NCBI RefSeq assembly: GCF_001905345.1
Contig: NZ_LFBV01000007.1
Span: 310,001-374,000 of the forward strand
From: Streptomyces uncialis
GTDB taxonomy: Bacteria > Actinomycetota > Actinomycetes > Streptomycetales > Streptomycetaceae
Direction of reading: 5' to 3'
Length of the DNA: 64,000 nt
The translations under genes and the position numbers were made by a program. Of this stretch, positions 5,092 through 45,946 are shown in pieces (the first letter of the stretch is position 1; each line of letters starts with the position of its first letter). The notes beneath the pieces were generated by a model. The model did not search any database. It saw nothing but the letters and a program-made list of their open reading frames with translations, and was not told the origin of the DNA.

Positions 5092-6143
5092 AGTCCGCTC
5101 ACCTTCCGACGCCGTACGAGCGCGATCAGCACGGGCGCGCCGATCACCGCGGTGAGCACGGCGACCTCGATCTCCCCTGGACGGGCGATCACCCTCCCGA
5201 GCGTGTCCGCCGCGAGGACCAGCACCGGACCGGCCAGCGCGCAGTGGACGGTGATCCACCGCTGGTCCGGTCCGACGAACCACCGCACCACGTGCGGCAC
5301 CATCAGCCCGACGAACGCGATCCCCCCGGTCAGCGCCGTCGCGCCACCGGCCAGCAGGGTCACCGCGAGGACACCCAGGACCCGGGTGCGCAGCACCTTC
5401 GCCCCCAGCGACACCGCGAGGTCGTCGCCGAGGGCCATCGAGTTCAGCGATCCCGAGACCACCAGCGCGATCAGCAGTCCGACCACGAGGAACGGAGCGA
5501 CGGCGACCGTGTCGTCCAGACTGGTACGGGCGATGGACCCGAGCCCCCAGGCGCGGACCGAACGGAAGGTCTCCGGGTCGATCAGGGTCAGGAAGGTGCT
5601 GAACCCGTTCAGCACCGCGCCCAGCGCGACCCCGGCCAGTACGAGCGTCACCGGCGGAGCCGTTCCCCGCCCAGCGGCACCGATCAGATACACCAGCACC
5701 GTCGCGGCGGCCGCCCCCACGAACGCGAACCACACGTAACCGGTGATCCCGGACAGCCCGAAGAACCCCGCCCCGAGGGTCACGGCGAAGCCCGCACCGG
5801 CGTTCACCCCGAGGATTCCGGAGTCGGCCAGCGGATTGCGCGTCAGCGCCTGGATCGACGCGCCCGCCACCCCAAGGGCCGCTCCCACCGCGACCCCGGC
5901 GACCGTACGCGGCACCCGCAGGTCCCACACGATGACCGACTCCTGGGACCCGTCGCGCTGCCAGAACCCCGTCCACACCTGTCCGGCGGACAACTCGTTG
6001 GCACCGACGGCCAGACTCGCCGACACCGTCACCACCAGCACGAACAGCGACAGCACCAGACCCGGGACGCGCCGGGCCGCGGCGCGGTCCTCGTCGGGAC
6101 GGAGTACCGAGGAGCCAGGAGCGGGCTCATGAACGGTCGTCAT
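5088..6143 (-). CDS. Iron-siderophore ABC transporter permease (FecC-like)
   Basis: A 351-residue FecCD-family permease, partner of the downstream permease. Recognisable family motifs are GASIQALTRNPLADSGILG, ALGDDLAVSLG and GGIAFVGLMVPHVVRWFVG. The start is placed at the ATG at 6143 (MTTVHEP); the frame stays open further upstream, but that stretch is Arg/Pro-rich and does not resemble the family. A gap of 154 bases separates it from the binding-protein gene, which is longer than the overlaps elsewhere in the operon and could hold an mRNA-processing site; no hairpin stood out there. Confidence 0.92.
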   Translation of the reverse strand: MTTVHEPAPGSSVLRPDEDRAAARRVPGLVLSLFVLVVTVSASLAVGANELSAGQVWTGFWQRDGSQESVIVWDLRVPRTVAGVAVGAALGVAGASIQALTRNPLADSGILGVNAGAGFAVTLGAGFFGLSGITGYVWFAFVGAAAATVLVYLIGAAGRGTAPPVTLVLAGVALGAVLNGFSTFLTLIDPETFRSVRAWGLGSIARTSLDDTVAVAPFLVVGLLIALVVSGSLNSMALGDDLAVSLGAKVLRTRVLGVLAVTLLAGGATALTGGIAFVGLMVPHVVRWFVGPDQRWITVHCALAGPVLVLAADTLGRVIARPGEIEVAVLTAVIGAPVLIALVRRRKVSGL

Positions 6144-6297
6144 ACGCGCGCGACCACCGCACATGAAGCGCGGCCGGTACGACCGGTACGGAACGAAGGG
6201 CCGGAGCCGGAGCCGAAGACTGTGGCCAGGTCCGGGACGGGGCCGGGGTCCGGGGGAGGAGCGGCCATGGACGACCGTCCTCCCGACACGGCGTGCC

Positions 6298-7344
6298 TCA
6301 ACGGATCGCCTTTCCACCCAGATCGGCGAGCTCGTCGATCAGCCACGGCACGCTCAGCACGCTCTGCACATTCAGTCCCCACGCGAAGTGGTTGGTGCCG
6401 GACTTCTTGTCCTGCGCGTTGACGACCGCTCGTCCGTCGGCCACCGCGGGCACGGCCTCGACCAGGGGCGCGTCCACGAAGTACCCGGGGTCGCCGGAGG
6501 TGCTGAGCAGCAGGAAGTCCGCGTCGATCAGTCCGACGAGCTCGTCGCTGATCGTGCCGTCCTTGGTGAACTTCTTGGCGGCTGCGGGCAGTACGAAGCC
6601 CAGCTGCTCGAAGAGCAGCGCGGTGTCGGAGCCGGGGGAGCTGGCGTAATAGGGACCGTACTTCTCGTCGTACACGATGACGTGCGTGGCGGTCCTGCCC
6701 TTGAACTCGGGGTGGTCGGCGCGGGTCTTCGCCACGCTCTTCTCCGCCGCTTCGACGGCGCTCCTTGCCGCGGCGGTCAGATCGAGGGTGTCGCCCAGCT
6801 TCCGCGTGAGTTCCTGCCAGGTCAGCTCGCCCGCGGGCGCGTGGAGCACGGGGGCGATGGCCTTGAGCTTGTCGAACCGTGCCTGGTCGAACGTCTCGTA
6901 GGCGGCGAGGGCGACGATGAGGTCCGGGGACGCGGCGGCGACCGCCTCGGCGGACACCTCCGTACCCGCCTCGGCGTCCCACAACTTGTCGATCTTCCCG
7001 ATGTCGTCGGCGTCGAGCCAGGGATTGCGGTCGACGGTCGACGGCGCGAACACCGGTGTCCCGCCCAGCGCGACCAGCGCGTCGGTGTCCAGGGTGTTCG
7101 CGGTGACCACCGCGATCCGCTCGGGGCGCCGGTCGAGCCGGGTGTCACCGAACGGGGTCCGCAGGGTCAGCGGGTACTCGGTCACGCCCTCCCCGGCGGG
7201 AAGAGCGGCGGAGGCACCGGCCGAGGTCCCCGTGGCAGCGGGTTCACCGGTACCCGCGCCGCAGCCCGTGACCAGGATCAGCCCGGCGATGACGGCTCCG
7301 GCCAGACGTGCCGCGCGGGTTCGGGGTGTACGCAAGGCTTGCAT
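6298..7344 (-). CDS. Iron-siderophore ABC transporter substrate-binding lipoprotein
   Basis: A 348-residue FecB/FepB-type binding protein anchored as a lipoprotein: the signal peptide ends in the lipobox LVTGC, followed by a Gly/Ala/Thr linker. The periplasmic-binding fold is seen in PERIAVVTANTLDTDALVALG, ASPDLIVALAAYETFD and the C-terminal HFAWGLNVQSVLSVPWLIDEL. The start is the ATG at 7344, chosen because GAGAGG sits 4-9 bases upstream and because it places the signal peptide correctly. This is the first gene of the uptake operon, and a near-perfect iron box lies about 80-95 bases upstream, so it is expected to be repressed when iron is plentiful. Confidence 0.93.
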   Translation of the reverse strand: MQALRTPRTRAARLAGAVIAGLILVTGCGAGTGEPAATGTSAGASAALPAGEGVTEYPLTLRTPFGDTRLDRRPERIAVVTANTLDTDALVALGGTPVFAPSTVDRNPWLDADDIGKIDKLWDAEAGTEVSAEAVAAASPDLIVALAAYETFDQARFDKLKAIAPVLHAPAGELTWQELTRKLGDTLDLTAAARSAVEAAEKSVAKTRADHPEFKGRTATHVIVYDEKYGPYYASSPGSDTALLFEQLGFVLPAAAKKFTKDGTISDELVGLIDADFLLLSTSGDPGYFVDAPLVEAVPAVADGRAVVNAQDKKSGTNHFAWGLNVQSVLSVPWLIDELADLGGKAIR

Positions 7345-7420
7345 GGGACCTCTCGGGTGGTGATGCCCCGGGCCGGACCCGTCTGATGACCTGGTCGGCA
7401 GGGCGCTATGTGCTGCCAAC

Positions 7421-7439
7421 TATGGTTAGCCTTACCTAT
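7421..7439. promoter_or_regulatory. Iron box (DmdR/IdeR-type operator)
   Basis: The 19-base sequence TATGGTTAGCCTTACCTAT is an imperfect palindrome that closely follows the actinobacterial iron-box consensus TTAGGTTAGGCTAACCTAA. It sits between the divergent siderophore-uptake operon and the AraC-type gene, and is one of the few AT-rich stretches here. DmdR1/IdeR repressors loaded with Fe(II) bind such sites; repression of the leftward operon, and possibly of the regulator, is inferred. Confidence 0.8.
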
Positions 7440-7501
7440 GTGATGGCTCCAGTGCGAAAAGTGACAACTTCGATGCGGATGATGACAATCGGAGCCGACG
7501 G

Positions 7502-8275
7502 ATGACCCCACGCCGAAGGGACCCCGGAGCGCACGCGGCCCTCTCGTCACTCGACTTCCCGCTGCACATACCGGGCGTCGACATCCCCGAACGGGTCCAC
7601 GACGACGAACACATGGCGCTCTGGCAGATCAGGGGCAGCACCCTCGTACAGTGCGGGGAGACCTCCGTCGAGATCACCGAGGGCGAGGTCGTCTGGCTGC
7701 CCGCGGGGACCAGGCACGCGCTGGAGGTCCGGGCGAACTCCGTCCTGTTCCCGCTCTCCATCTCGGTGGACGAGATCGCGACCGTGCTCACCGACATCAC
7801 GGTCGTCTCGATCCGCAACGACGAGAAGATCTACTTCCTGGCCCTCCACCAGAGCCAGAGCACCATCATCCGCCCCTCCGCGAACATCCAGCGGCAGGTG
7901 CTGTCCATCCTCGAACGCCGGGCACTGGCCTCCGACGACCTCCCGCTGCCCACCAGCCCCGGAGCGGCCGCGGTGGCGGGCGCCCTGCTGTTCAACCCGG
8001 GCGACGACCGGCGCATCCGCGACTGGGCGCTCGCGGTACGGACCAGCGGGCGCAGCCTGGAGCGGGCCTTCGTCGCGGAGACCGGACTGACGTTCGGCCA
8101 GTGGCGCACCAGAAGCCGTATGCACGCCGCGGCCCGGCTGCTGCGCGCGGGCTCGTCGGTGGTCTCGGTCACCCAGCGCGTGGGATACGAGGACCCCAGC
8201 AGCTTCGCCCGCGCCTTCCGCGACTTCTACGACATGAGCCCGACGGAGTACGTGGCCCCGGACCGGCGGACCTGA
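7502..8275 (+). CDS. AraC-family transcriptional regulator
   Basis: A 257-residue regulator with an N-terminal cupin-like sensor domain (EITEGEVVWLPAGTRHALEV at about 56-75) and a C-terminal AraC helix-turn-helix pair. The second HTH reads VVSVTQRVGYEDPSSFARAF, followed by the typical GxSPTEYV ending (DMSPTEYV). The ATG at 7502 has GGAG seven bases upstream. It is divergent from the siderophore-uptake operon across the iron box, so it is probably its pathway-specific activator responding to the ferric siderophore, as YbtA/PchR-type regulators do. That partner assignment is inferred from position only. Confidence 0.88.
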   Translation: MTPRRRDPGAHAALSSLDFPLHIPGVDIPERVHDDEHMALWQIRGSTLVQCGETSVEITEGEVVWLPAGTRHALEVRANSVLFPLSISVDEIATVLTDITVVSIRNDEKIYFLALHQSQSTIIRPSANIQRQVLSILERRALASDDLPLPTSPGAAAVAGALLFNPGDDRRIRDWALAVRTSGRSLERAFVAETGLTFGQWRTRSRMHAAARLLRAGSSVVSVTQRVGYEDPSSFARAFRDFYDMSPTEYVAPDRRT

Positions 8276-8293
8276 CCGCCGGCCCACCGGCGG
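8276..8293 (+). terminator. Hairpin terminator after the AraC gene
   Basis: A perfect 7-bp stem CCGCCGG / CCGGCGG with a 4-base loop begins directly after the AraC stop codon. There is no T-run, which is common for Streptomyces terminators. Confidence 0.45.
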
Positions 8294-8560
8294 CGCGGCA
8301 CCGGCCCATGGCCGGTGGCCGTCGGCGTCCATCGACACATTCGGCATGGTTCGGCGAAGACACGGACAGTCGGCCTCCGCGGCCGACGCAGGAGGAGCGC
8401 ACGCCACGCGGCCCGGGTACCCCCTCCGGGAGCCCCGCCGATCGGGGGGTAACAGGAATGTGCGCTACCCGTTGTCCTGGGGGAGACCTGACGGGAAGCT
8501 TCGGCCAGTCACCGGAGTGACGTCTCCGGTACTCCGGGTGAAGAAGGAGTGCGTATCGCC

Positions 8561-8812
8561 ATGTCCCTACGCAGAATGCTCTCCACCGCAACTGTGGCCG
8601 TGTTCCTGGTGGGCACCGGGCTGCTGGCCGCTCCGGCCGCGCAGGCCGCACCGCCGGCTTCCGCGGCGGGGGCCGCCCACTGGGTCTCGTACGGTCCGCA
8701 CCAGTCCTACGAGCATTGCGAGAGGATCGGTAACCACCTGGTCGCCATCTGGCTCATCACCGAGTTCAGATGTGACCCCTACCCGCCCTACCACCTGAAT
8801 GTCTGGAAGTAG
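8561..8812 (+). CDS. Small secreted protein with one cysteine pair
   Basis: An 83-residue protein of unknown function. Residues 1-29 form a Sec signal peptide (SLRRML then a hydrophobic core and AAPAAQAA as a likely cleavage site), leaving a mature chain of about 54 residues with exactly two cysteines (EHCERIG and EFRCDPY), probably a disulfide. Aromatic-rich surroundings (GPHQSYEHC, YPPYHLNVW) resemble a family of short exported proteins common in Streptomyces. The ATG at 8561 is preferred over a GTG at 8549 because GAAGGAG lies 11 bases upstream of the ATG, while it would overlap the GTG. It stands alone between a regulator and an ABC-F gene. The 285 bases upstream hold no gene; a small inverted repeat GTCAC/GTGAC at 8508-8521 is the only structure I noticed. 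Confidence 0.8.
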   Translation: MSLRRMLSTATVAVFLVGTGLLAAPAAQAAPPASAAGAAHWVSYGPHQSYEHCERIGNHLVAIWLITEFRCDPYPPYHLNVWK

Positions 8813-9042
8813 TGGCCCGACCTGGCCGCACCGGCGACCCACGACCGCGTCCGTCTGACGGCTGAGAGCCGAACGCGTCGCGGAGCCGGCACACATCGTG
8901 GTCGTCGTCCGAGTGACCGCGGACGACGGCACCGCCCGCCCCGTCCGCCGCCCGCAACCCCGCGGTACGCGCCCGCCGGGCCCCGACGGGCACGCCGGAA
9001 AACCGGAGGAGCGGGGAAAGCCGCGCTGCTAGCATGATTGTC

Positions 9043-9087
9043 ATGGCACGAGGTATCTGGTCGCAGAAGGTCCGCTCCGCCCGCTGA
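9043..9087 (+). CDS. Putative leader peptide of the ABC-F gene
   Basis: A 14-codon ORF (M-A-R-G-I-W-S-Q-K-V-R-S-A-R) lies about 100 bases upstream of the ABC-F start. An in-frame ATG at 9034 would add three residues. A TAGCAT hexamer at 9030-9035 could be a -10 element, which would make the ATG at 9043 leaderless or nearly so; I see no convincing -35. Short leader ORFs like this control several antibiotic-resistance ABC-F and methylase genes by drug-induced ribosome stalling. Its last codons contain GCTCCGC (9074-9080), complementary to the ribosome-binding region of the ABC-F gene. The ORF is plain; its role is inferred. Confidence 0.55.
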   Translation: MARGIWSQKVRSAR

Positions 9088-9160
9088 CGGCGGCGCCTTC
9101 TCCCTTTCGAATCTGCGCTCGCCGTCCCGGTTCCCGCCGGGCGGCCACTTCCCGCTGCCC

Positions 9161-9185
9161 GGCTCCCACTGCGAGTCGCGGAGCC
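9161..9185 (+). promoter_or_regulatory. Hairpin sequestering the ABC-F ribosome binding site
   Basis: GGCTCC (9161-9166) pairs perfectly with GGAGCC (9180-9185) across a 13-base loop. The right arm contains the GGAG that serves the TTG start at 9190. An alternative partner for the same arm is GCTCCGC inside the leader ORF. This is the layout expected of attenuation; the base pairing is seen, the regulation is inferred. Confidence 0.5.
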
Positions 9186-9189
9186 TCCG

Positions 9190-10860
9190 TTGAACCTCAC
9201 TCCCACCCCCGAAGCCATGTCCCGCTCCGTCCCGGCCGACGGCAGCGCACACCTCCGCGCCGAGGGCGTCACCGTCACCCGCGGGTCCCGGCGGGTCCTG
9301 ACCGACGTCTCCGTCACCGTCTCCGCCCGGTCGCGGATCGCCGTCGTCGGCGAGAACGGCCGTGGCAAGACGACCCTGCTGCACGTCCTCGCCGGACTGC
9401 TCACGCCCGACAACGGCACCGTGCACCGGGCCGGCACGATCGGTCTGGCGCGCCAGGAACTGTCCGCACGGGACGGCGAGACCGTCGGCACCCTGACCTC
9501 CGAGGCGCTGGCCGCCTCGCTCGCGGCCCTCACCGCCCTGGACGAGGCGACCCGGGCCATGACCGAGGGCGACCCCTCGGCCGACGACCGCTACGCGTCC
9601 GCACTCGACGCCGCCACCCGGCTCGACGCGTGGGACGCCGAACGCCGCGTCGATGTCGCACTCGAAGCCCTCGGTGCCTGCGCCGACCGCGACCGCCCCC
9701 TGTCGACACTGTCGGTCGGGCAGCGCTACCGGGTCCGGCTCGCGTGCCTGCTCGGCGCGCGGCACGACATCCTGCTGCTCGACGAGCCGACCAACCATCT
9801 CGACGCGGGCGGGCTGGACTTCCTGACCCGCAGGCTGCGCGAGCACGACGGCGGGCTCGCCGTCGTCAGCCACGACCGCGCGCTGCTGCGCGACATCGCG
9901 AACCGCTTCCTCGACCTCGACCCGGCCCGCGACGGCAAGCCGCGTCTGTACGCCGGCGGCTACGACAGCTGGCAGGACGCCCGACGCCGTGAGCGTGACC
10001 GCTGGGAGCAGGACCACGAGGAGCAGCAGGCCGAGCACCGGCGGCTGAAGGACGCCGTGTCGAAGGCCCGTGACCGGCTCTCCACCGGCTGGCGGCCGGA
10101 CAAGGGGACCGGCAAGCACCAGCGTCAGTCCCGGGCACCGGGCGTGGTGCAGGCCCTGAAGCGGCAGCAGGACGCCCTGGAGGCGCACCGGATCGATGTA
10201 CCGGAGCCACCGGCGGCGCTCCGCTGGCCGGACCCCGGTGTCCGGCCGGGCGCTCCGCAGCTACGGGCGTTCGGCGTCGCGGTCGAGGGCCGGCTGGCCG
10301 GTCCGGTCGACCTCGTCCTCGACGGCGGCGACCGACTGCTCGTCACCGGACCCAACGGTGCCGGGAAGTCCACGCTGCTCGCGGTGCTGGCCGGTTCGCT
10401 CACGCCCACGGCCGGCCATGTCCGGACGGCGGAGGGGGCACGGGTCGTCCGGGTGACCCAGGAGACCGCAGGGCAGGAACCCGGACCGACCGCCCGCGAG
10501 GTGCACGGGCTTCATATGGGGCGGTTGGTGGCCCGCGGGACACTGCGTGACGCCGATGCCGTCCCGCTCAGGGCGATGGGTCTGCTGGACGCCGACGCGA
10601 TGCGCACGCCGGTCGGGCGGATGTCGCAGGGGCAGCGCCGGCGCCTCGACCTGGCGCTGGCGCTGGCCGGGCGGCCCGGACTGATCCTGCTCGACGAGCC
10701 GACCAACCATCTGTCGTCGGCGCTGGTCGACGAACTGACCGAGGCGATCCGCGGCACGAGCGCCGCCGTGGTCGTCGCGACGCACGACCGGCAGCTCCTG
10801 CGGGACCTCGCGGACTGGCCGCGGCTGGAGTTGGACGAGCCCCTGGTACCGGGGGCCTGA
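9190..10860 (+). CDS. ABC-F family ATPase (antibiotic-resistance type ribosome protection)
   Basis: A 556-residue soluble protein with two ABC domains and no membrane segments. Domain 1 has GENGRGKTT, the signature [12 protein letters not shown] and [12 protein letters not shown]; domain 2 has [22 protein letters not shown] and [12 protein letters not shown]. Between them is a charged coiled-coil linker (about 260-330, [20 protein letters not shown]), the part that reaches the peptidyl-transferase centre in ribosome-protecting ABC-F proteins. The start is taken as TTG at 9190 because GGAG lies seven bases upstream; an ATG at 9217 is an alternative. The leader peptide and hairpin before it support a drug-inducible resistance role (macrolide, lincosamide or pleuromutilin type); the actual drug cannot be told. 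Confidence 0.9.
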
Positions 10861-11051
10861 TCCGGCGTGACCGGTCCGTCGGGCGGGTGAAACGACCGGG
10901 CGGCACCGGGAGCACTGACCGGTAGCGCCCTGCGCCGCCTTGCGACGGGAGCACTGACCGGCACCGCCCGCACCGCCCAGCACCCGGAGGTGCCGACCGG
11001 TGCTCCCAGGCCGGGCGGGGCCCGGCGTCCTGTCCGGCCCGAGCGGGACGG
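10861..11051. repeat. Convergent intergenic region with repeated GGGAGCACTGACCGG
   Basis: The 15-mer GGGAGCACTGACCGG occurs at 10908-10922 and 10947-10961, and its core returns inverted (GTGCTCCC at 11000-11007). The region separates two converging genes, so the long inverted pairing may act as a bidirectional terminator. Confidence 0.4.
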
Positions 11052-11516
11052 TCACGTCCCGTCCGGCGCCGGGCAGTTCCCGGGACGGGACGCCGGTGCT
11101 GACGCCGGCGCCGGACCTGGTGCCGGTGCCGGTGCCGGTGCGAAGAGGTCACCGAAACGGTTGGTGAGCTGGGAGGCGAGCCCGTCCCGGATCGACGACA
11201 GCCGTGCGATGCGCTGGTCGAGCTCCCCGAGGCGGTGCTGAGCGACCTCCGCGACATCGCAGCGGTCCGGTTCACCGGCCCCGGACGGGTCCCGGAGGGG
11301 CGCACTGTCCAGGACGTGGGCGAAGCTCCGGACGTCCGAGACGGTCAGGCCCGCCTGAAGCAGTTCGCTGACGGTCCGCAGCCGTCTGATGTCCGCCGAG
11401 GTGTAGGTCCGGTGACCGGATGGCGTGCGCCCGGGGGACAGCAGGCCCTGCTCCTCGTAGTAGCGCACCGCACGCGTGGTGAGCCCCGTGGCCGCCGCCA
11501 CATCGCCTATGCGCAT
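11052..11516 (-). CDS. MerR-family transcriptional regulator
   Basis: A 154-residue MerR regulator. The N-terminal winged helix is clear (MRIGDVAAATGLTTRAVRYY, then GLLSPGRTPSGHRTYT), followed by a dimerisation helix and a short C-terminal tail of Pro-Ala repeats (APAPAPAPGPAPASAP). It lacks a large drug-binding domain, and the one Cys (DRCDVAE) does not form a metal site I recognise. It follows the oxidoreductase gene by 31 bases and is presumably co-transcribed with it from the MerR-type promoter at 12647-12678, giving autoregulation. Effector unknown. Confidence 0.9.
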   Translation of the reverse strand: MRIGDVAAATGLTTRAVRYYEEQGLLSPGRTPSGHRTYTSADIRRLRTVSELLQAGLTVSDVRSFAHVLDSAPLRDPSGAGEPDRCDVAEVAQHRLGELDQRIARLSSIRDGLASQLTNRFGDLFAPAPAPAPGPAPASAPASRPGNCPAPDGT

Positions 11517-11547
11517 CCCGTCTTCCCGCCCCCCCGTGTGGCCGTCG

Positions 11548-12564
11548 TCAGAGCTCTATCAGTACCGCACCGATATGGCGTCCGGCGAGCAGGTCGCACA
11601 GGGCCTGCGGAGCGCGGTCGATGCCGTGCACCAGCGTATGAGGCACGGTGAGGGTCCCCGCCCGCAGCCCTCGGCCGAACTCCTCGGTCCACTGCCCCAG
11701 CGCGTCCAGATGCGCGTGGCCCGCGATACCGCGCAGGGTGATCCCCCGGTTCAGGACATGAGCGGTGTCGATGACGACCGGCGCCGTGGCGCTGCCCGCC
11801 GTCTGACTGGCGAGACTGCCCACCAGCGCGATCCGCGCCCCCTGACGGGCCTGCGCGAGCGCGGCACGCAACTGGTCCCCGCCCACCAGGTCGATGACCG
11901 CGTCCAGCCCGTCCGGGGCCAGCGCACGCAACTGGTCGTCGATGGGTCCCGCCGAACGGATCACGGCCGCGTCGTAGCCGAGCCGGTCGGTCAGCCGGTC
12001 GGCCTTCTGCCGGGAGCTCGTGCTGCCGATGACCCTGGCGGCGCCGTGCAGCCGGGCGAACTGACCGGCCATCGTGCCGACACCACCCGCGGCGCCGGTG
12101 ACGAGGACGGTGTCCCCGGCCCGGATCTCCGCTCCGCGCACCACCGCGAGCCATGCCACGAAGCCTTGCGAGAGATGGGCGACGGGATCGGGCAGCGCCT
12201 CCAGGTCCAGGCGCTGCGCCTCGTCCTCGCCGAGAACCGCGTACTCCCGCCATCCCGCGTTGTGCTCGACCAGGTCCCCGCGCTTCAGGGAGCCCTCCGG
12301 AGCGGAGATCACTTCGCCCACCGCGGGACCCGACAGGACGGCGCCCGGCGCGTACCCGGGCATCGGCAGTTCCCCGTTCCCCGCCATCAGGGTGCGCATC
12401 ACCGCGGTGACGCCCATGAGGCGGTTGCGCACCAGTATCCGCCGCGGTCCCGCGACCGGTACGGGTGCTTCGACCAGCCTGAAGTGGTCCGTGGTGAGGG
12501 GCCCTTCGGGGCGGGCCGCCAGATGGACCTCACGGTGGGTGGCGGGAACCGGAGCGGCGTTCAT
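11548..12564 (-). CDS. NADPH-dependent zinc-free MDR oxidoreductase
   Basis: A 338-residue medium-chain dehydrogenase/reductase of the leukotriene B4 dehydrogenase/alkenal reductase branch. The nucleotide-binding loop is VTGAAGGVGTMAGQFARL, with GSTSSRQKADRL for NADPH. No catalytic-zinc cysteines are present. Such enzymes reduce the double bond of reactive enones or enals. The start is ATG 12564, because AGGAGAG lies upstream. It is the first gene of an operon with the MerR regulator, suggesting an inducible response to an electrophilic or xenobiotic compound; the inducer is not known. Confidence 0.88.
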   Translation of the reverse strand: MNAAPVPATHREVHLAARPEGPLTTDHFRLVEAPVPVAGPRRILVRNRLMGVTAVMRTLMAGNGELPMPGYAPGAVLSGPAVGEVISAPEGSLKRGDLVEHNAGWREYAVLGEDEAQRLDLEALPDPVAHLSQGFVAWLAVVRGAEIRAGDTVLVTGAAGGVGTMAGQFARLHGAARVIGSTSSRQKADRLTDRLGYDAAVIRSAGPIDDQLRALAPDGLDAVIDLVGGDQLRAALAQARQGARIALVGSLASQTAGSATAPVVIDTAHVLNRGITLRGIAGHAHLDALGQWTEEFGRGLRAGTLTVPHTLVHGIDRAPQALCDLLAGRHIGAVLIEL

Positions 12565-39338: not shown

Positions 39339-39974
39339 GTGCCGAGAGTCGCCGACCATGACGCCCGACAAGGGCAGATCACCGACGCCGTCCAACGCCT
39401 TGTCGTGCGGCACGGCCTCACCGCCGTGACCGTCGCGCGGACCGCCGCGGAAGCGGGCATGTCCGTCGGCCTGGTGCAGCACTACTTCACGGCGAAGGAC
39501 GAAATGCTGCTGGCCACGTTCACCCGCGTCAACGCGCGCTTCACCGCACGGGTGGACGAGCTGGTGAACCGGGGCGAGGGCGAGGACCGCACCATCGCCG
39601 ACATGCTGCGGCAGGCGCTGGCCGTACTCGTCCCGCTGGACGACGTCCGCCGCGCCGAGTTCCTGGTCCGTCTCGCCTTCGCGGACCAGGCCGCGCACAA
39701 CGCCCGCCTCGCCACCGTCCAGCGGGAGACCCTCGTGGGCATCCGCTCACGCGTCGCCCAGGCCATCAGCAACGGCACGGTGTGCGGCGAGGTCGCCCAG
39801 GGGACCGACGCCGCCGACCAGGCCCTGCGCGTCGTCGCGTTCACCGAAGGGCTCGCCCTGCACGCGCACATCGACCCCGACGGCACACCGAAAGCGGCGA
39901 TCCTCACCGCGCTGGACGAGCAACTCGGCCGCGTGTTCACCGGAACCTGCCGACGCGCCCGGCCCGGTCGGTGA
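39339..39974 (+). CDS. TetR-family transcriptional regulator
   Basis: A 211-residue regulator: ITDAVQRLVVRHGLTAVTVA, AAEAGMSVGLVQHYF and TAKDEMLLATF form the HTH. The ligand domain is of the BetI-like C-terminal type (LDEQLGRVF at the end). GTG start without a Shine-Dalgarno and next to a -10-like TACCGT, so probably leaderless. Likely represses the divergent serine hydrolase gene and itself. Confidence 0.87.
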   Translation: MPRVADHDARQGQITDAVQRLVVRHGLTAVTVARTAAEAGMSVGLVQHYFTAKDEMLLATFTRVNARFTARVDELVNRGEGEDRTIADMLRQALAVLVPLDDVRRAEFLVRLAFADQAAHNARLATVQRETLVGIRSRVAQAISNGTVCGEVAQGTDAADQALRVVAFTEGLALHAHIDPDGTPKAAILTALDEQLGRVFTGTCRRARPGR

Positions 39975-40822: not shown

Positions 40823-42172
40823 ATGAGTGCCGATCTCTCCGACCTCCCTCCGGCCCCGGGCCGTCTGCCGCTGCTGGGACACACGGTCGCGCTGCTGCGG
40901 GACCCCCAGCGCTTCCTCGCCTCCGTGTCCGCGCAGGGGGGCCTCGTCCGGCTCCGGCTCGGCCCGCACCGGATGGTCCTGGTCTGCGACGCGACCCTGA
41001 CCCAGGCGGTGTTCGCCGACGACCGTGTCTTCGACAAGGGGGGACCGTACTCGGACCGCGTCGGAGAGGTCGTCGGTGAGGGGCTGGGCACCTGCCCCCA
41101 CAGCAGGCACCGGCGCCAGCGCCGGCTGTGCCAGCCCGCCTTCCACCACACCCGGCTCCCCGCCTACGTACCCGCCGTCACGACCGCGGTACGGGAGGTC
41201 TCGGCGCCGTGGAAGGACGGTCAGGTCATCGACGTCAAGCGGACGATGATGGCGATCACCTGCCAGGCCGTCGCCCGGACGATGTTCAGCGCCCGACTGC
41301 CCGCCGAAACCGCCCGCCAGGTCACCGAGGACGTCTCCCTCGTCGTCAACGGCCTGCTCCGCCGACTCCTCACGCCCCGGGCGCTGAGCCGTGTGCCCAC
41401 CCCCGGCACCCCGCGCTACCACCGGGCCCTGACCCGGCTCCGGCGGACGGTGGCCGATGTCGTCGCCGCCCGCCGCGCCGACCCGGCCGACCATCAGGAC
41501 CTGCTCTCCGGGCTGCTGCTGGCCCCGGACCCCGACCCGGGGGGCGACGGACCCCGGCCGCTGACCGACCGGGAGGTCACCGACCAGGTGATCACCTTCT
41601 TCCTGGCCGGTACGGAAACCCTCGCCGGACTGCTCGCCTGGACGCTCTACGAACTCGCCCGCCACCCCGGGACCCAGCGGCGGCTCCACACCGACCTCGC
41701 CCAGGGGCTCCCGGCCGGTCCCCCGACGGCCGCCGACCGCGAGGAGCCCTCCCTGGCCGACCGGGTGGTCACCGAGACGCTCCGTCTCCACACCCCGATC
41801 TGGCTGCTGACCCGTGTCCTCACCACGGACGCCGACCTCGGCGGCACCCGTCTGCCCGCCGGGACGCAGCTCGCCATCAGCCCCTACACACACCACTGGA
41901 ACCCGGTTCACCACCCCGACCCGACAGCCTTCGACCCCGGCCGCTGGGCCGGTCGGCGCCCGGACCGCACCACCTACATCCCCTACGGAGCGGGCCCGCG
42001 CCGGTGCATCGGCGACCGCTACACCCACCTGGCCGCCACGGCCACCCTCGCCGCCCTCCTCACCGACTGGGAGATCAGCCCCGTCACCGAACGGCCCGCC
42101 CGCGCGGTGCTGGGCGGAGCGGTCGTCCCCCGACGCCTCCGACTGCGCGTCACCGCCCGGGAGCAGCCGTAG
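40823..42172 (+). CDS. Cytochrome P450 (terpenoid cluster)
   Basis: A 449-residue soluble P450. The oxygen-binding I-helix reads FFLAGTETLAGLLAW, the E-x-x-R motif is ETLRLHT, and the haem-cysteine loop is YGAGPRRCIGD. Its N-terminal part (VFDKGGPYSDR, HRRQRRLCQPAFH) matches the neighbouring P450 at 42208-43542 block by block, so the two are paralogues, and these motifs are shared with actinobacterial terpene oxygenases of the pentalenene-oxygenase type. It converges on the operon carrying the cyclase and ends next to a shared terminator. Probably oxidises the cyclised terpene. Confidence 0.9.
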   Translation: MSADLSDLPPAPGRLPLLGHTVALLRDPQRFLASVSAQGGLVRLRLGPHRMVLVCDATLTQAVFADDRVFDKGGPYSDRVGEVVGEGLGTCPHSRHRRQRRLCQPAFHHTRLPAYVPAVTTAVREVSAPWKDGQVIDVKRTMMAITCQAVARTMFSARLPAETARQVTEDVSLVVNGLLRRLLTPRALSRVPTPGTPRYHRALTRLRRTVADVVAARRADPADHQDLLSGLLLAPDPDPGGDGPRPLTDREVTDQVITFFLAGTETLAGLLAWTLYELARHPGTQRRLHTDLAQGLPAGPPTAADREEPSLADRVVTETLRLHTPIWLLTRVLTTDADLGGTRLPAGTQLAISPYTHHWNPVHHPDPTAFDPGRWAGRRPDRTTYIPYGAGPRRCIGDRYTHLAATATLAALLTDWEISPVTERPARAVLGGAVVPRRLRLRVTAREQP

Positions 42173-42180
42173 AGACAGGG

Positions 42181-42219
42181 CCCCGCCGCGGAGCCCGGTG
42201 GCAGGGCTCAACGGCGGGG
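42181..42219. terminator. Nested bidirectional terminator between the two P450 genes
   Basis: CCCCGCCG (42181-42188) pairs with CGGCGGGG (42212-42219) and, inside it, GAGCCC (42191-42196) with GGGCTC (42204-42209). The structure includes the stop codon of the leftward P450. Confidence 0.75.
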
Positions 42220-43542
42220 GACGGTCGTCATCGGCAGACGGTTCGGGGCGAGCGTCGTCCGGAAGCGCGGCCGGGGCGGACGGGCGGTCCTGACCGGCCG
42301 GAGGCTCCAGTGGGGGACGATCGCCGAAAGGGCGATCGTGATCTCGGCCAGCGCGAAGGTGTCGCCGACGCACTTGCGGCGACCCGCCCCGAAGGGGATG
42401 CACGCCTGACGCAGGGCCGGGGTGGCCGGGGCGGACCAGCGGTCCGGGTCGAAGGAATCGGGGCGGGGGAAGACAGCCGGATCGTGCTGGAGCTGATAGG
42501 GGCTGACCACGAAGTCCGAGCCGGCGGCGAAGCGGTGGCCGCCCAGCTCCACCTCGGTCGTGCTGCTGCGGGTCAGCAGCCAGACCACCGGCCGTACACG
42601 CATCGTCTCCAGGACGACATCACGGGTGAAGGGCAGGGCGGGGAAGTCGTCGGGGGTCGCGAGACGGCCGTGGAGCACACCGTCCAGCTCGTCGGCGAGG
42701 CGGCTTTCGACGGTCGGGTGGCGGGCGAGGAGGTGGAAGGCCCAGGCGAGGGTGTTCGCGGTGGTCTCGGTGCCACCGGCGAGCAGGATGACGACCTGGT
42801 CGCGCAGTTCGCCGTCGGTGAAGCCCTCGCCGTCGGCGTCGGGACCGAGCAGGGCGGTCATCAGCCTGCTGTGGTCCGGACGGGACCGGGCGGCGCGGAC
42901 GGTGTCGTCGGCGGCGTCGAGGATCTGGCGGCGGGCGAGCCGGAAGCGCCGGTTCGCGGGGACGGGCAGGCGGTCGTACCAGGGGAACAGGGCGCGGGCG
43001 GCGATCCCGTCCGACAGCGATCTGGTCTGCTCCGCGAGCCGTACGGGGTCGGCGATGTCGGCGCCGGGCAGCAGGACGCGGGTGAAGACGCCGACGGAGA
43101 GCCGATGCATCTCGGTCAGCGCGCAGATCCTGCCCCGGGCACTCCAGCGCGCGGTCAGCGCGGCGCTCTCCTCCCGCATGGCCTCGGTGTAGGCGGCGAT
43201 GTGCGCCGGTGCGAAGGCCGGTTGGATCAGTCGGCGCTGACGGCGGTGCTCCTCGTGGGGGGCGGTGGCCAGACCGTTGCCACCGACCTCCCGGATCCGG
43301 TCGAACAGCGGACCGCCCTTGTCGAAGCGGGCGCCTTGGCCGACGAGCACCTCGTGGACGAGTTCGGGCGCGGAGAGCAGATAGGCGCGGCGTGACCCGA
43401 GGCGTACCTCGGTGACGGCACCGGTGGTGCGGCAGGCCGCGAGCCAGCGCGCGGGAGCGCGGACGAGTGCGGGGACATGGCCCACGAGAGGCAGACCCCA
43501 GGGCGCCACCGGTACGGGGGCGGTCGCACGCGTGACGGTCAT
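42208..43542 (-). CDS. Cytochrome P450 (terpenoid cluster)
   Basis: A 444-residue P450. I-helix VILLAGGTETTANTLAW, E-x-x-R as ETMRVRP, haem loop FGAGRRKCVGD. N-terminal blocks RFDKGGPLFDR and HRRQRRLIQPAFA match the P450 at 40823-42172. The ATG overlaps the stop of the terpene cyclase (ATGA), so the two are translationally coupled, which strongly ties this oxidase to the cyclase product. GGAGAG lies upstream of the start. Confidence 0.92.
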   Translation of the reverse strand: MTVTRATAPVPVAPWGLPLVGHVPALVRAPARWLAACRTTGAVTEVRLGSRRAYLLSAPELVHEVLVGQGARFDKGGPLFDRIREVGGNGLATAPHEEHRRQRRLIQPAFAPAHIAAYTEAMREESAALTARWSARGRICALTEMHRLSVGVFTRVLLPGADIADPVRLAEQTRSLSDGIAARALFPWYDRLPVPANRRFRLARRQILDAADDTVRAARSRPDHSRLMTALLGPDADGEGFTDGELRDQVVILLAGGTETTANTLAWAFHLLARHPTVESRLADELDGVLHGRLATPDDFPALPFTRDVVLETMRVRPVVWLLTRSSTTEVELGGHRFAAGSDFVVSPYQLQHDPAVFPRPDSFDPDRWSAPATPALRQACIPFGAGRRKCVGDTFALAEITIALSAIVPHWSLRPVRTARPPRPRFRTTLAPNRLPMTTVPRR

Positions 43543-44726
43543 GGGTCTCTCCTCCGGACGGTCGCCGGGCCGTCCTTCGCGGGGGCGTCCGGCGGGACGG
43601 GGTCGCACGGATCGTCCCCCGGCCCGGGCGGAGCGGGGTCCGCCGGTGCCGTGCTGTGGAACGGGGCTTCTCGTTGCCGCCACCACCAGGCGAGGGCGGC
43701 CGTCGGCGGGCGGTGATCGGTGACCGGGCACCGCTCGGTGAAGGAGGCGCTGAAGGTGACGGCGTGGGGGTGGCGGCCGTCGGGGTTGTGGTAGCGGCTG
43801 GAGGTGAGATGGTGACGGAGATTGCCGGCCACGAGCAGATCGAGTCCGCGCAGATACGCGGCGGTCGCGGGATCGGCGGCCGGCAGCAGTTCGGCGAGCA
43901 GATGCCGCCACAGGCACATCAGGCCGTTGCGGATCTCGGCGGTGCGGGCGAACGCGTCCTGAACGCTGTGGCCGTTGAGCTCCAGGAAGCGGACGACGTT
44001 GGGGCCCGGCCACACCCCGGTGGCCCGGGCGCGGAGGTGTTCCTTGCCGTAGGAGACCATGTCGTTGTCGAGCGCGGCGGTCATCATGGCCGCCCGCCCG
44101 GCGGCGACCGTCTTCGGATCGTGCCAGGCGGCCGCCGGAACGGCGGTGACGCAGGCGACGTTCGCGACGTCCAGCATCAGCTGGGCGGCGACGGCCCCGA
44201 AGCGGTACCGGAGGAAGTCGCCCAGACCGAGCCGGTCCCAGCGGGCGTCGTCGCGGAGCACACCCAGCAGCCACGCGCCGAACCCCGCGACATAGCGGTC
44301 GGCCTGCATCGGGGTGGACAGCTCGTAGGCCCGGCGGGTGATGTCGTACACCCCGCGCAGAACGGGCGGATCGGCGTCGGTGGGACGGTGGCCGCGGTGG
44401 TCGGAGATGACGGGCCACAGCTCACCGATGAACGGTCCCACGACGGCCGGGGAACCGTCGCCCGCTTCGAGACGCTGATCGTCCAGCACCGCCCCCAGGC
44501 ACCAGAAGTCGCTGACCCACTGCACCCGTTCCCGAGGCTGTCGGGGAGACCAGCGGGCGGCCATGTCCCCGGCCATGACATTGCCGACGGCGCGTTCCGC
44601 CTCCGGAGTGGCGCACAGGCCTGTCGTCCGCATCCACCGCGTCGTCCGGTCCTGGATCAGCTCGGCGTCCGGGTGGAGTTCGGGCCGGACCGGCGAGTAC
44701 AGCGGAGGGAGGGTGTAGTGGGTCAT
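43539..44726 (-). CDS. Class I terpene cyclase (probable diterpene synthase)
   Basis: A 395-residue terpene synthase. The Mg-binding aspartate-rich motif is DDQRLE (D82, D83, E87; D-D-x-x-x-E type), the NSE triad is NDMVSYGKE (N221, D222, S225, E229, with K228), the pyrophosphate-sensing arginine is in FLRYRF (171-176), and the terminal RY pair is R311-Y312. The N-terminal 325 residues are the usual single alpha domain. The last 70 residues are a Pro/Asp-rich extension with no family match. The adjacent prenyl synthase suggests a C20 substrate, giving a cyclic diterpene hydrocarbon or alcohol. The product cannot be read from sequence. Confidence 0.9.
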   Translation of the reverse strand: MTHYTLPPLYSPVRPELHPDAELIQDRTTRWMRTTGLCATPEAERAVGNVMAGDMAARWSPRQPRERVQWVSDFWCLGAVLDDQRLEAGDGSPAVVGPFIGELWPVISDHRGHRPTDADPPVLRGVYDITRRAYELSTPMQADRYVAGFGAWLLGVLRDDARWDRLGLGDFLRYRFGAVAAQLMLDVANVACVTAVPAAAWHDPKTVAAGRAAMMTAALDNDMVSYGKEHLRARATGVWPGPNVVRFLELNGHSVQDAFARTAEIRNGLMCLWRHLLAELLPAADPATAAYLRGLDLLVAGNLRHHLTSSRYHNPDGRHPHAVTFSASFTERCPVTDHRPPTAALAWWWRQREAPFHSTAPADPAPPGPGDDPCDPVPPDAPAKDGPATVRRRDP

Positions 44727-44826
44727 CGAGTGCGCCTCCTCGGTCGCAGGGGTGGGGTTCGCCGGTCCGGGCCGCTCGGGGAGGTGAACGGGCGCGTCGG
44801 CCGCGCCGCTTCACCGGGGCGGGCCG

Positions 44827-45843
44827 TCAGCGGTCGCGGTGCACGACCAGGTGGGCGAGGGAGCTGAGTTCGGCGGCCGGTACGGGGGAGGGGTCGGCGC
44901 GGTCGAGATGGCGCAGCGCGTCGGCGACATGGTCGAGGGCACGCCGCTCGGTCGCCTCCCGGGCGCCGGTCTGCTCGATCAGATCCGCGGCGCGTGCACA
45001 GTCGTCGTCGCCGAGCGGCGTGCGCGCCCGGTAGAGCTCCCGCAGGTGCCGGGCCGGTGGGGAGTCCTGAGCCATGGCGGCGGCGACCGGCAGCGACACC
45101 TTCCGGTGCCGCAGATCGGACCGGGCGGGCTTGCCCGTGGTCCCGGGGTCGCCCCAGATACCCAGGAGGTCGTCGGCGCACTGGAAGGCGATGCCCAGAT
45201 GGTGACCGAAGGCCCGCAGATGCCGGACCCGTTCGGGGTCCGCCCCACCGGCCGCGGCGCCCAGTTCGCAGGCACAGGCCAGCAGGACGGCGGTCTTCCC
45301 GGCCGCGACCTGGAGTGCCTCGTGCTCCCGGTCGGCCCCCGTCTCCAGGAGTACGTCGCGGTACTCGCCCTCGATGAGCACCTGGACGGTGTCCAGCAGC
45401 ACCGGGACGGAGACATCCGCCCCCGGGGCACCGACGAGGGCCTGCACGGCGGCGAAGAACAGGGCGTCGCCCGCGAGGATCGCCGCCGGGACACCCTGGG
45501 TGGCCCACAGAGCGGGCCGACCCCGCCGCAGGGGGTCCTGGTCGATGATGTCGTCATGGAGCAGCCCGGCGTTGTGGATCAACTCGACGGCGACCGCCGC
45601 CGGATGCGCGGCCCGCGCCGGACCGCCGACGGCCTGGCACGCCAGCAGCGTCAGGGCCGGACGGAGCAGCTTGCGGGTCTCAGGGGCGTCACGGGCGGTA
45701 CCGTGCTCGGTCCACCAGCCGAAGTGCAATCCGCACACATGCCGGATGCGCTCAGGTAATCGGCAGACCCGGGAACGCAGCAGCGGTCCGACGGCGGTCG
45801 CGGTCTGGGCCAGTATCGTCGGGCAGTCACGAGCCTCGGTCAT
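44827..45843 (-). CDS. Polyprenyl diphosphate synthase (probable GGPP synthase)
   Basis: A 338-residue trans-prenyltransferase: first aspartate-rich motif DDIIDQD, second DDLLGIWGD, a form typical of Streptomyces GGPP/FPP synthases. Residues before the first motif (LIHNAGLLHDD) are small, which favours a C20 rather than C15 product, but chain length is not certain. It supplies the cyclase encoded 100 bases downstream. Codon 29 (31 if started at the ATG 45849) is TTA at 45757-45759, so expression of the cluster should depend on bldA. The ATG at 45843 is preferred because AGAGG then has a 7-base spacing. Confidence 0.9.
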   Translation of the reverse strand: MTEARDCPTILAQTATAVGPLLRSRVCRLPERIRHVCGLHFGWWTEHGTARDAPETRKLLRPALTLLACQAVGGPARAAHPAAVAVELIHNAGLLHDDIIDQDPLRRGRPALWATQGVPAAILAGDALFFAAVQALVGAPGADVSVPVLLDTVQVLIEGEYRDVLLETGADREHEALQVAAGKTAVLLACACELGAAAGGADPERVRHLRAFGHHLGIAFQCADDLLGIWGDPGTTGKPARSDLRHRKVSLPVAAAMAQDSPPARHLRELYRARTPLGDDDCARAADLIEQTGAREATERRALDHVADALRHLDRADPSPVPAAELSSLAHLVVHRDR

Positions 45844-45946
45844 CGTCATCCTCTTCGCACGTAGGGGCCCCGCTCCGCCGGGCTGACACGGTCCGCGTCC
45901 CTCGGGAGCTGGGCACGACGAGCGGCGTCCATCCGCCGCTACGCCA

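Follow-up and report, generated by a model that had tools for sequence, protein, structure and literature searches.

A 64,000-nucleotide stretch of the Streptomyces uncialis genome (RefSeq GCF_001905345.1, contig NZ_LFBV01000007.1, positions 310,001 to 374,000 of the forward strand; hereafter the window) contains four open frames at 40823-45849, encoding a prenyl diphosphate synthase, a class I terpene cyclase and two cytochrome P450s (P450 a and P450 b). Judged from sequence, the locus is probably a compact cluster for a C25 sesterterpenoid rather than a diterpenoid. This assignment is drawn mainly from the prenyl synthase: its kinship, the residues at two signature sites, and the neighbourhoods in which its relatives are encoded. 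An earlier reading, made without database searches (the sequence-only reading), had called the locus a compact diterpenoid cluster. The compact terpenoid cluster was upheld, including a prenyl synthase of its own, one cyclase and two P450s, but the diterpenoid part was not, as the prenyl synthase groups with geranylfarnesyl diphosphate (GFPP) synthases.

The prenyl synthase is predicted to condense isopentenyl diphosphate onto an allylic primer up to GFPP, a length suggested by the alanine at position -5, where an aromatic residue caps shorter-chain enzymes. The class I cyclase would ionise GFPP via a Mg2+ cluster (DDxxxE, the NSE triad, sensor R175 and the RY pair) and fold it to a cyclic hydrocarbon or alcohol. 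Both P450s may then oxidise the cyclase product.

Kinship and signature of the prenyl synthase

In a set of 199 Streptomyces genomes, S. uncialis included, the three best prenyl synthases other than the window enzyme itself are 68% identical to it (loci L147, L155 and L156), and each is encoded directly upstream of a cyclase bearing sesterviolene-synthase motifs. The part of PDB 29ms (named StSS) that was compared, 101 residues long, is found within the L156 cyclase. StSS converts GFPP and not geranyl, farnesyl or geranylgeranyl diphosphate (GPP, FPP or GGPP), and its motifs are DDFIV and NDRYSFCKE (excerpt of PMC10509563). Both motifs are likewise present in the sesterviolene-type cyclases beside the 68% identical prenyl synthases. 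The S. mobaraensis homologue (L120/L149), 52% identical to the window enzyme, adjoins a cyclase; across 335 compared residues this cyclase agrees with PDB 29mt/29mu, 29mu being titled SmTS1, and it also fits the published SmTS1 residue numbers. The prenyltransferase of the two-gene cluster in S. mobaraensis makes GFPP in vitro (PMC7693059, in part), and the prenyltransferase that clusters with the sesterviolene synthase SvSS shares 49% identity with this GFPP synthase (PMC10107272, in part). By its identity both to the characterised enzyme and to the enzymes clustered with sesterviolene-type synthases, the window enzyme is a probable member of the S. mobaraensis-type GFPP synthases. A homologue from Actinomadura sp. 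DC4 (L037) is 53% identical. In NCBIfam the window enzyme scores highest with NF041169, the model for family 2 encapsulin cargo polyprenyl transferases, at 366 bits, below the cut-off of 450. None of five genes flanking the cluster has a match at the sesterviolene-type loci.

Two sites in the enzyme may bear on chain length. The first is A94, at position -5 in the first Asp-rich region IHNAGLLHDDIIDQD, and the second is GDALFF, which includes F131 and F132. Position -5 is a known chain-length site (PMC11048977, in part); the combination Ala(-5) plus GDALFF is a signature proposed in the present analysis and not an established definition. We compared 59 prenyl synthases, 57 of them readable at -5 before DDxxD; because rows entered the set through their similarity to the window enzyme or their nearness to cyclases, it is no random sample. 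The signature is present in six of the 57 (the window, L118/L147, L037, L119/L158, L120/L149 and L121/L150) and in three later rows (L155, L156 and L165). One of its bearers is the characterised GFPP synthase of S. mobaraensis. Six of the eight signature enzymes outside the window adjoin, or sit at most 2.5 kb from, SmTS1, StSS or a cyclase that shares 38-88% identity with one of these, the remaining two being L150 and L037. Around spiroviolene-synthase-like cyclases (FDDxRCD and NDRxSLxKE), all 12 prenyl synthases encoded at a distance of up to about 3 kb have phenylalanine at -5. L007, the sixth paralogue of the S. uncialis genome, has Ala at -5 and lacks GDALFF.

The Phe pair of yeast GGPP synthase limits its product to GGPP. 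A role of the GDALFF pair as a GGPP limiter was dropped as the favoured interpretation because a characterised GFPP synthase has the same pair.

After 14 of the 59 rows had been dropped as short or distant, a tree was made from the remaining 45, leaving out the signature columns. In it the window enzyme pairs with L118 at 100/100, and the pair belongs to a group of nine rows supported at 97/95. An earlier, smaller tree, made before L118 was known, had joined the window enzyme to that of Actinomadura sp. DC4 (99/98).

Several loci gathered in this comparison have features of their own. At L147 (genome G091, about 8467-9291, minus strand) the sesterviolene-type synthase is cut off after the NSE triad and followed by unrelated sequence, with the prenyl synthase intact beside it. 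In genome G107 the prenyl synthase occurs twice, as inverted copies, in the first 95 kb of contig C1 (L148 and L158); a sesterterpene-type cyclase is split between frames near one copy and intact near the other. At L150 (G062, 8147-11881, minus strand) a P450 and a signature prenyl synthase stand in a row with a cyclase of a different kind (DDECE, NELLSRHKE), which shares about 28% identity with SmTS1 and StSS; the locus is another candidate sesterterpenoid cluster. In L165 (G235, 5587-12134, minus strand) the sesterterpene-type cyclase next to the signature prenyl synthase shares 44% identity with StSS; some 1.5 kb beyond this cyclase stands a P450, and the locus also includes a fragment of a second prenyl synthase. 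When the L150 and L028 cyclases were searched against the PDB, no near-identical characterised enzyme turned up.

An intact but extremely diverged cyclase

The class I set of the window cyclase is complete (DDQRLE, NDMVSYGKE, sensor R175 and R311-Y312), with metal and diphosphate ligands intact. Its AlphaFold2 model has a confident class I fold (mean predicted local distance difference test score 87.7, predicted template modelling score 0.85) with a low-confidence tail. By VIA-align the nearest structures are selinadiene synthase 4okm_A (Z 43.4, root mean square deviation 2.0, 338 residues) and the diterpene synthase CyS (cattleyene synthase; Z 43.3), which are tied; next is the Kitasatospora viridis sesterterpene synthase (Z 41.2; sesterviridene synthase, PDB 9rs2). 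CyS also fills the first three Foldseek rows and, at 103 bits, heads the PDB sequence matches. The cyclase misses the cut-off of the selinadiene synthase model NF041565 (101.7 bits against 450). From the D-D-x-x-x-E motif and a 70-residue tail the sequence-only reading had suggested a product class that it could not assign; the motif as a sign of an unusual class and the tail as diagnostic were both rejected. The canonical Asp-rich motif is DDXX(X)D/E (PMC10325987, in part), and the E is present in 41/41 selinadiene-synthase-like relatives; the tail comprises 46 residues after AWWW, and eight listed relatives carry tails of 43-64 residues. Nothing found gives the cyclase a defined product.

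The relatives recovered for the cyclase are distant. Among 61 genomes, 13 match at E<=1e-10, S. uncialis included, and among 150 Streptomyces genomes eight match at E<=1e-22, again including S. uncialis; in both sets the best other match is 34% identical. An alignment scan with one genome per species across 84,980 species, which requires one of two short peptide patterns and is not exhaustive, gave 144 relatives, the best 80 of which are all at most 33% identical. A genome-contig scan with the cyclase alone returned 16 stretches, with no relative among them. Plasmid records yielded seven matches, the best (32%) on the S. cattleya megaplasmid, which agrees with the PDB 7y50 lines shown, titled CyS. 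In phylogenies with characterised synthases, of the kind that the sequence-only reading had called for, the cyclase pairs with that of L037. Three trees recover this pair (Shimodaira-Hasegawa-like approximate likelihood ratio test support of 96, then 89/96 and 63/96), always on a very long branch. The end branch of the window cyclase measures 2.2-3.3 against medians of 0.15-0.19, and no other row deviates as often from the 30 columns with conservation of >=95% (nine deviations, against six in the next row). Its nearest relatives, when only sequence and fold are considered, are di- and sesquiterpene synthases. The conserved Trp six residues before RY is replaced, as in SmTS1.

Five aromatic residues line GGPP in CyS (PMC9543850, in part). 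Four are replaced in the window cyclase (F62 by M55, W81 by F74, F86 by A79 and W318 by H305), the W81 change being shared by 41/41 selinadiene-synthase-like rows. The fifth, W160, is kept as W152; its loss was considered and ruled out by the mapped column, the replaced Trp being CyS W166 (Arg, R158). Of 97 aligned cyclases, 82 retain both F62 and W318, and eight have lost the two: four of SmTS1/StSS type, the window, L037, L050 and L029. A published substrate-size switch lies at A224 in spiroviolene synthase (SvS) and A222 in SmTS1, according to excerpts of the reports. Ala is found there in the window, in 18/18 CyS-like and 22/27 SvS-like rows, and Ile in 37/41 selinadiene-synthase-like rows, which speaks against a sesquiterpene synthase; the switch does not separate C20 from C25. 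The joint loss of F62 and W318, common to the window and the four SmTS1/StSS-type cyclases, together with Ala kept at the size switch, favours a C25 substrate.

A number of observations weigh against a C25 product. The structures nearest to the cyclase are sesquiterpene and diterpene synthases, and over aligned columns it is less like SmTS1 (23%) and StSS (22%) than like CyS (30%) or L037 (29%). The trees do not recover it inside the known sesterterpene-synthase clade, although constraining it to the SmTS1/SvSS clade is not rejected, with p-AU (approximately unbiased test) values of 0.359 alone and 0.182 with L037. Loss of F62 and W318 extends to L050 and L029. Val occupies the size switch in L037, the nearest partner of the window cyclase in the trees, and A222V abolishes GFPP use in SmTS1, as excerpted from the published work. 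Pocket volume, summed from the residue volumes at 13 chosen positions, is 1825 for the window, within the diterpene-synthase range of 1763-1955 and above the four sesterterpene enzymes (1720-1784). Group means are 2013 for selinadiene-like, 1904 for CyS-like and 1796 for SvS-like rows and 1749 for the four sesterterpene enzymes; the measure was dropped as a discriminator and leans, if anything, to the diterpene side. On the side of the prenyl synthase, three of the group of nine depart from Ala at -5 (Met in two, Gly in one), forcing the six signature rows into one clade is borderline rejected (p-AU 0.047), and a type III GGPP (C20) synthase also has Ala at -5 (PMC11048977, in part).

A rival reading is a diterpenoid cluster, in which the prenyl synthase makes GGPP, the cyclase, as a distant CyS relative, cyclises it, and the two P450s oxidise the product. 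The sequence and structure matches to CyS, the pocket volume and the Ala of the type III GGPP synthase all fit such a pathway. We nevertheless consider it unlikely: the characterised S. mobaraensis GFPP synthase has the same two signature features, the 68% identical homologues lie upstream of sesterviolene-type synthases, and the 12 spiroviolene-synthase-like loci have Phe at -5. It is still less probable that the locus is decaying or non-cyclising, with a cyclase too diverged to cyclise efficiently and a linear terpenoid or none being made, since the long end branch, the nine deviating columns and published inactive actinobacterial terpene synthases (known from excerpts) are set against an open frame with normal codon bias, retained metal and diphosphate ligands, a confident predicted fold, a compact gene order, a well-conserved prenyl synthase and the example of SmTS1, which is active and, in the excerpted account, likewise lacks several conserved residues.

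Within the favoured sesterterpenoid assignment, a single lineage of actinobacterial GFPP synthases may have acquired cyclase partners from different lineages. The cyclase of the window, and perhaps that of Actinomadura sp. DC4, would then belong to a sesterterpene cyclase lineage that falls outside the SmTS1/SvSS clade, has a rebuilt pocket and is encoded in a P450-equipped type I cluster. We advance this tentatively, rating its chances at slightly below even. If it is true, Ala(-5) plus GDALFF would report the chain length of a cluster where the cyclase cannot, and sesterterpenoid clusters could be mined even when their cyclase is unrecognisable.

The P450s and the organisation of the locus

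The best solved relative of both P450s is PDB 3dbg, a 'putative cytochrome P450', which we take to be CYP170A1. P450 genes also lie near the signature prenyl synthases of L156 (upstream), L150, L037 and L165; none was detected in the fetched stretches of L147, L149, L155 and L158 with the window's two P450s as queries. The SmTS1 cluster is described as two genes, in a main text without the word P450 (PMC7693059, in part), and the excerpt of PMC10107272 states that no P450 is encoded near SvSS. Among the titles and abstracts listed by searches of the open-licence literature, none disclosed a P450-equipped bacterial type I sesterterpene cluster. The window would offer a route to enzymatically oxidised bacterial sesterterpenoids.

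The gene order given by the sequence-only reading was borne out by the DNA and by Pfam (Table 1): prenyl synthase, cyclase and P450 a run leftward, the cyclase stop and the P450 a start sharing ATGA, and P450 b converges on them across a gap of 38 bp. The two P450s are paralogous, as it had stated, and the motifs it named are present (DDIIDQD/DDLLGIWGD, DDQRLE/NDMVSYGKE/RY and two haem-binding loops). All Pfam scores exceed their cut-offs (polyprenyl_synt 181.5 bits; Terpene_syn_C_2 54, cut-off 23.7; p450 233 and 210). Third-position GC is 0.87-0.92 in the four cluster genes and 0.85-0.91 in four neighbouring genes. Inspection of the DNA revealed plausible ribosome sites ahead of all four starts; of the two prenyl-synthase starts, 45843 has the better spacing to GAAGAGG. 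A promoter and terminator scan of the locus, which covers Streptomyces promoters poorly, found none.

Table 1. Genes and sequence features of the terpenoid locus (window coordinates)
Feature	Coordinates	Strand	Details
Prenyl diphosphate synthase, predicted GFPP (C25) synthase	44827..45849	-	340 aa; start 45849 or 45843; Pfam PF00348
First Asp-rich region of prenyl synthase, with A94 (position -5)	45535..45579	-	Sequence
GDALFF, second signature site of prenyl synthase (F131, F132)	45454..45471	-	Sequence
Class I terpene cyclase, predicted sesterterpene cyclase	43539..44726	-	395 aa; Pfam PF19086; AlphaFold2 class I fold
Asp-rich motif DDQRLE, cyclase residues 82-87	44466..44483	-	Sequence
NSE triad NDMVSYGKE, cyclase residues 221-229	44040..44066	-	Sequence
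RY pair, cyclase residues 311-312	43791..43796	-	Sequence
46-residue C-terminal cyclase tail after AWWW, predicted disordered	43542..43679	-	Sequence and model
Cytochrome P450 a	42211..43542	-	444 aa; Pfam PF00067; ATGA overlap with cyclase
Cytochrome P450 b	40823..42172	+	449 aa; Pfam PF00067; convergent; 37% identical to P450 a
TetR-family regulator	39339..39974	+	Pfam; 848 bp upstream of P450 b

By Pfam, the cluster is flanked on one side by beta-lactamase-family and TetR genes and on the other by endonuclease/phosphatase-family and DAO-family oxidoreductase genes. A tie between the TetR regulator and the terpenoid cluster is only a guess. Elsewhere the S. uncialis genome (8.88 Mb, 16 contigs) encodes five more prenyl synthases and shows terpene-synthase matches in three additional places. 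One such place (L004, C14:421729-422328), about 48 kb past the window end on the same contig, has a terpene-synthase gene with an adjoining P450 that scores 298 bits to P450 b and is cut by the end of the locus. At another (L003, C1:1779204-1779788), a terpene synthase adjoins a P450 that shares 43.7% identity with P450 a along 410 residues.

Comparison with known terpenoid clusters

The diterpene synthases CyS and SvS share the class I fold and motifs with the window cyclase, CyS at about 30% identity. They differ from it in that four of the five GGPP-lining aromatics of CyS are changed in the window, and in that the prenyl synthases at SvS-like loci have Phe(-5).

The cyclooctatin cluster (cotB1-B4) comprises a prenyl synthase, a cyclase and two P450s. 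The sequence-only reading had likened the window to it, and the gene content is indeed the same; a cyclooctatin-type cluster is nevertheless not supported, as the window prenyl synthase goes with C25 enzymes and is predicted to make a C25 product. None of the 21 PDB sequences matching at E<=1 bears the name CotB2, which is a gap in a list and no disproof, nor does CotB2 appear among the Foldseek and VIA-align matches listed for the cyclase.

The sestermobaraene cluster of S. mobaraensis resembles the window in having a GFPP synthase with the same signature, 52% identical, beside a class I cyclase. It differs in being described as a two-gene cluster (PMC7693059, in part) and in its cyclase, SmTS1, only 23% identical. 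The sesterviolene loci (StSS, Streptomyces sp. Tu 2975; SvSS, S. violens) likewise place a prenyl synthase beside a class I cyclase. At loci of this type the prenyl synthase is 68% identical, has the same signature and lies directly upstream of the cyclase, with a P450 upstream in L156. Unlike the window, their cyclase is only 22% identical, their flanks are not shared, and the excerpt of PMC10107272 places no P450 near SvSS.

The uncharacterised locus of Actinomadura sp. DC4 resembles the window in layout, with a signature prenyl synthase (53% identical), a cyclase (29%), and upstream and convergent P450s. It differs in having Val at the size switch and in its two P450s, which share 76% identity and do not have those of the window as their closest relatives. 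Orthology of the two four-gene sets was rejected on these P450 relationships. Because the Actinomadura P450s are a recent pair, not closest to the window's, the common four-gene layout probably arose by convergence.

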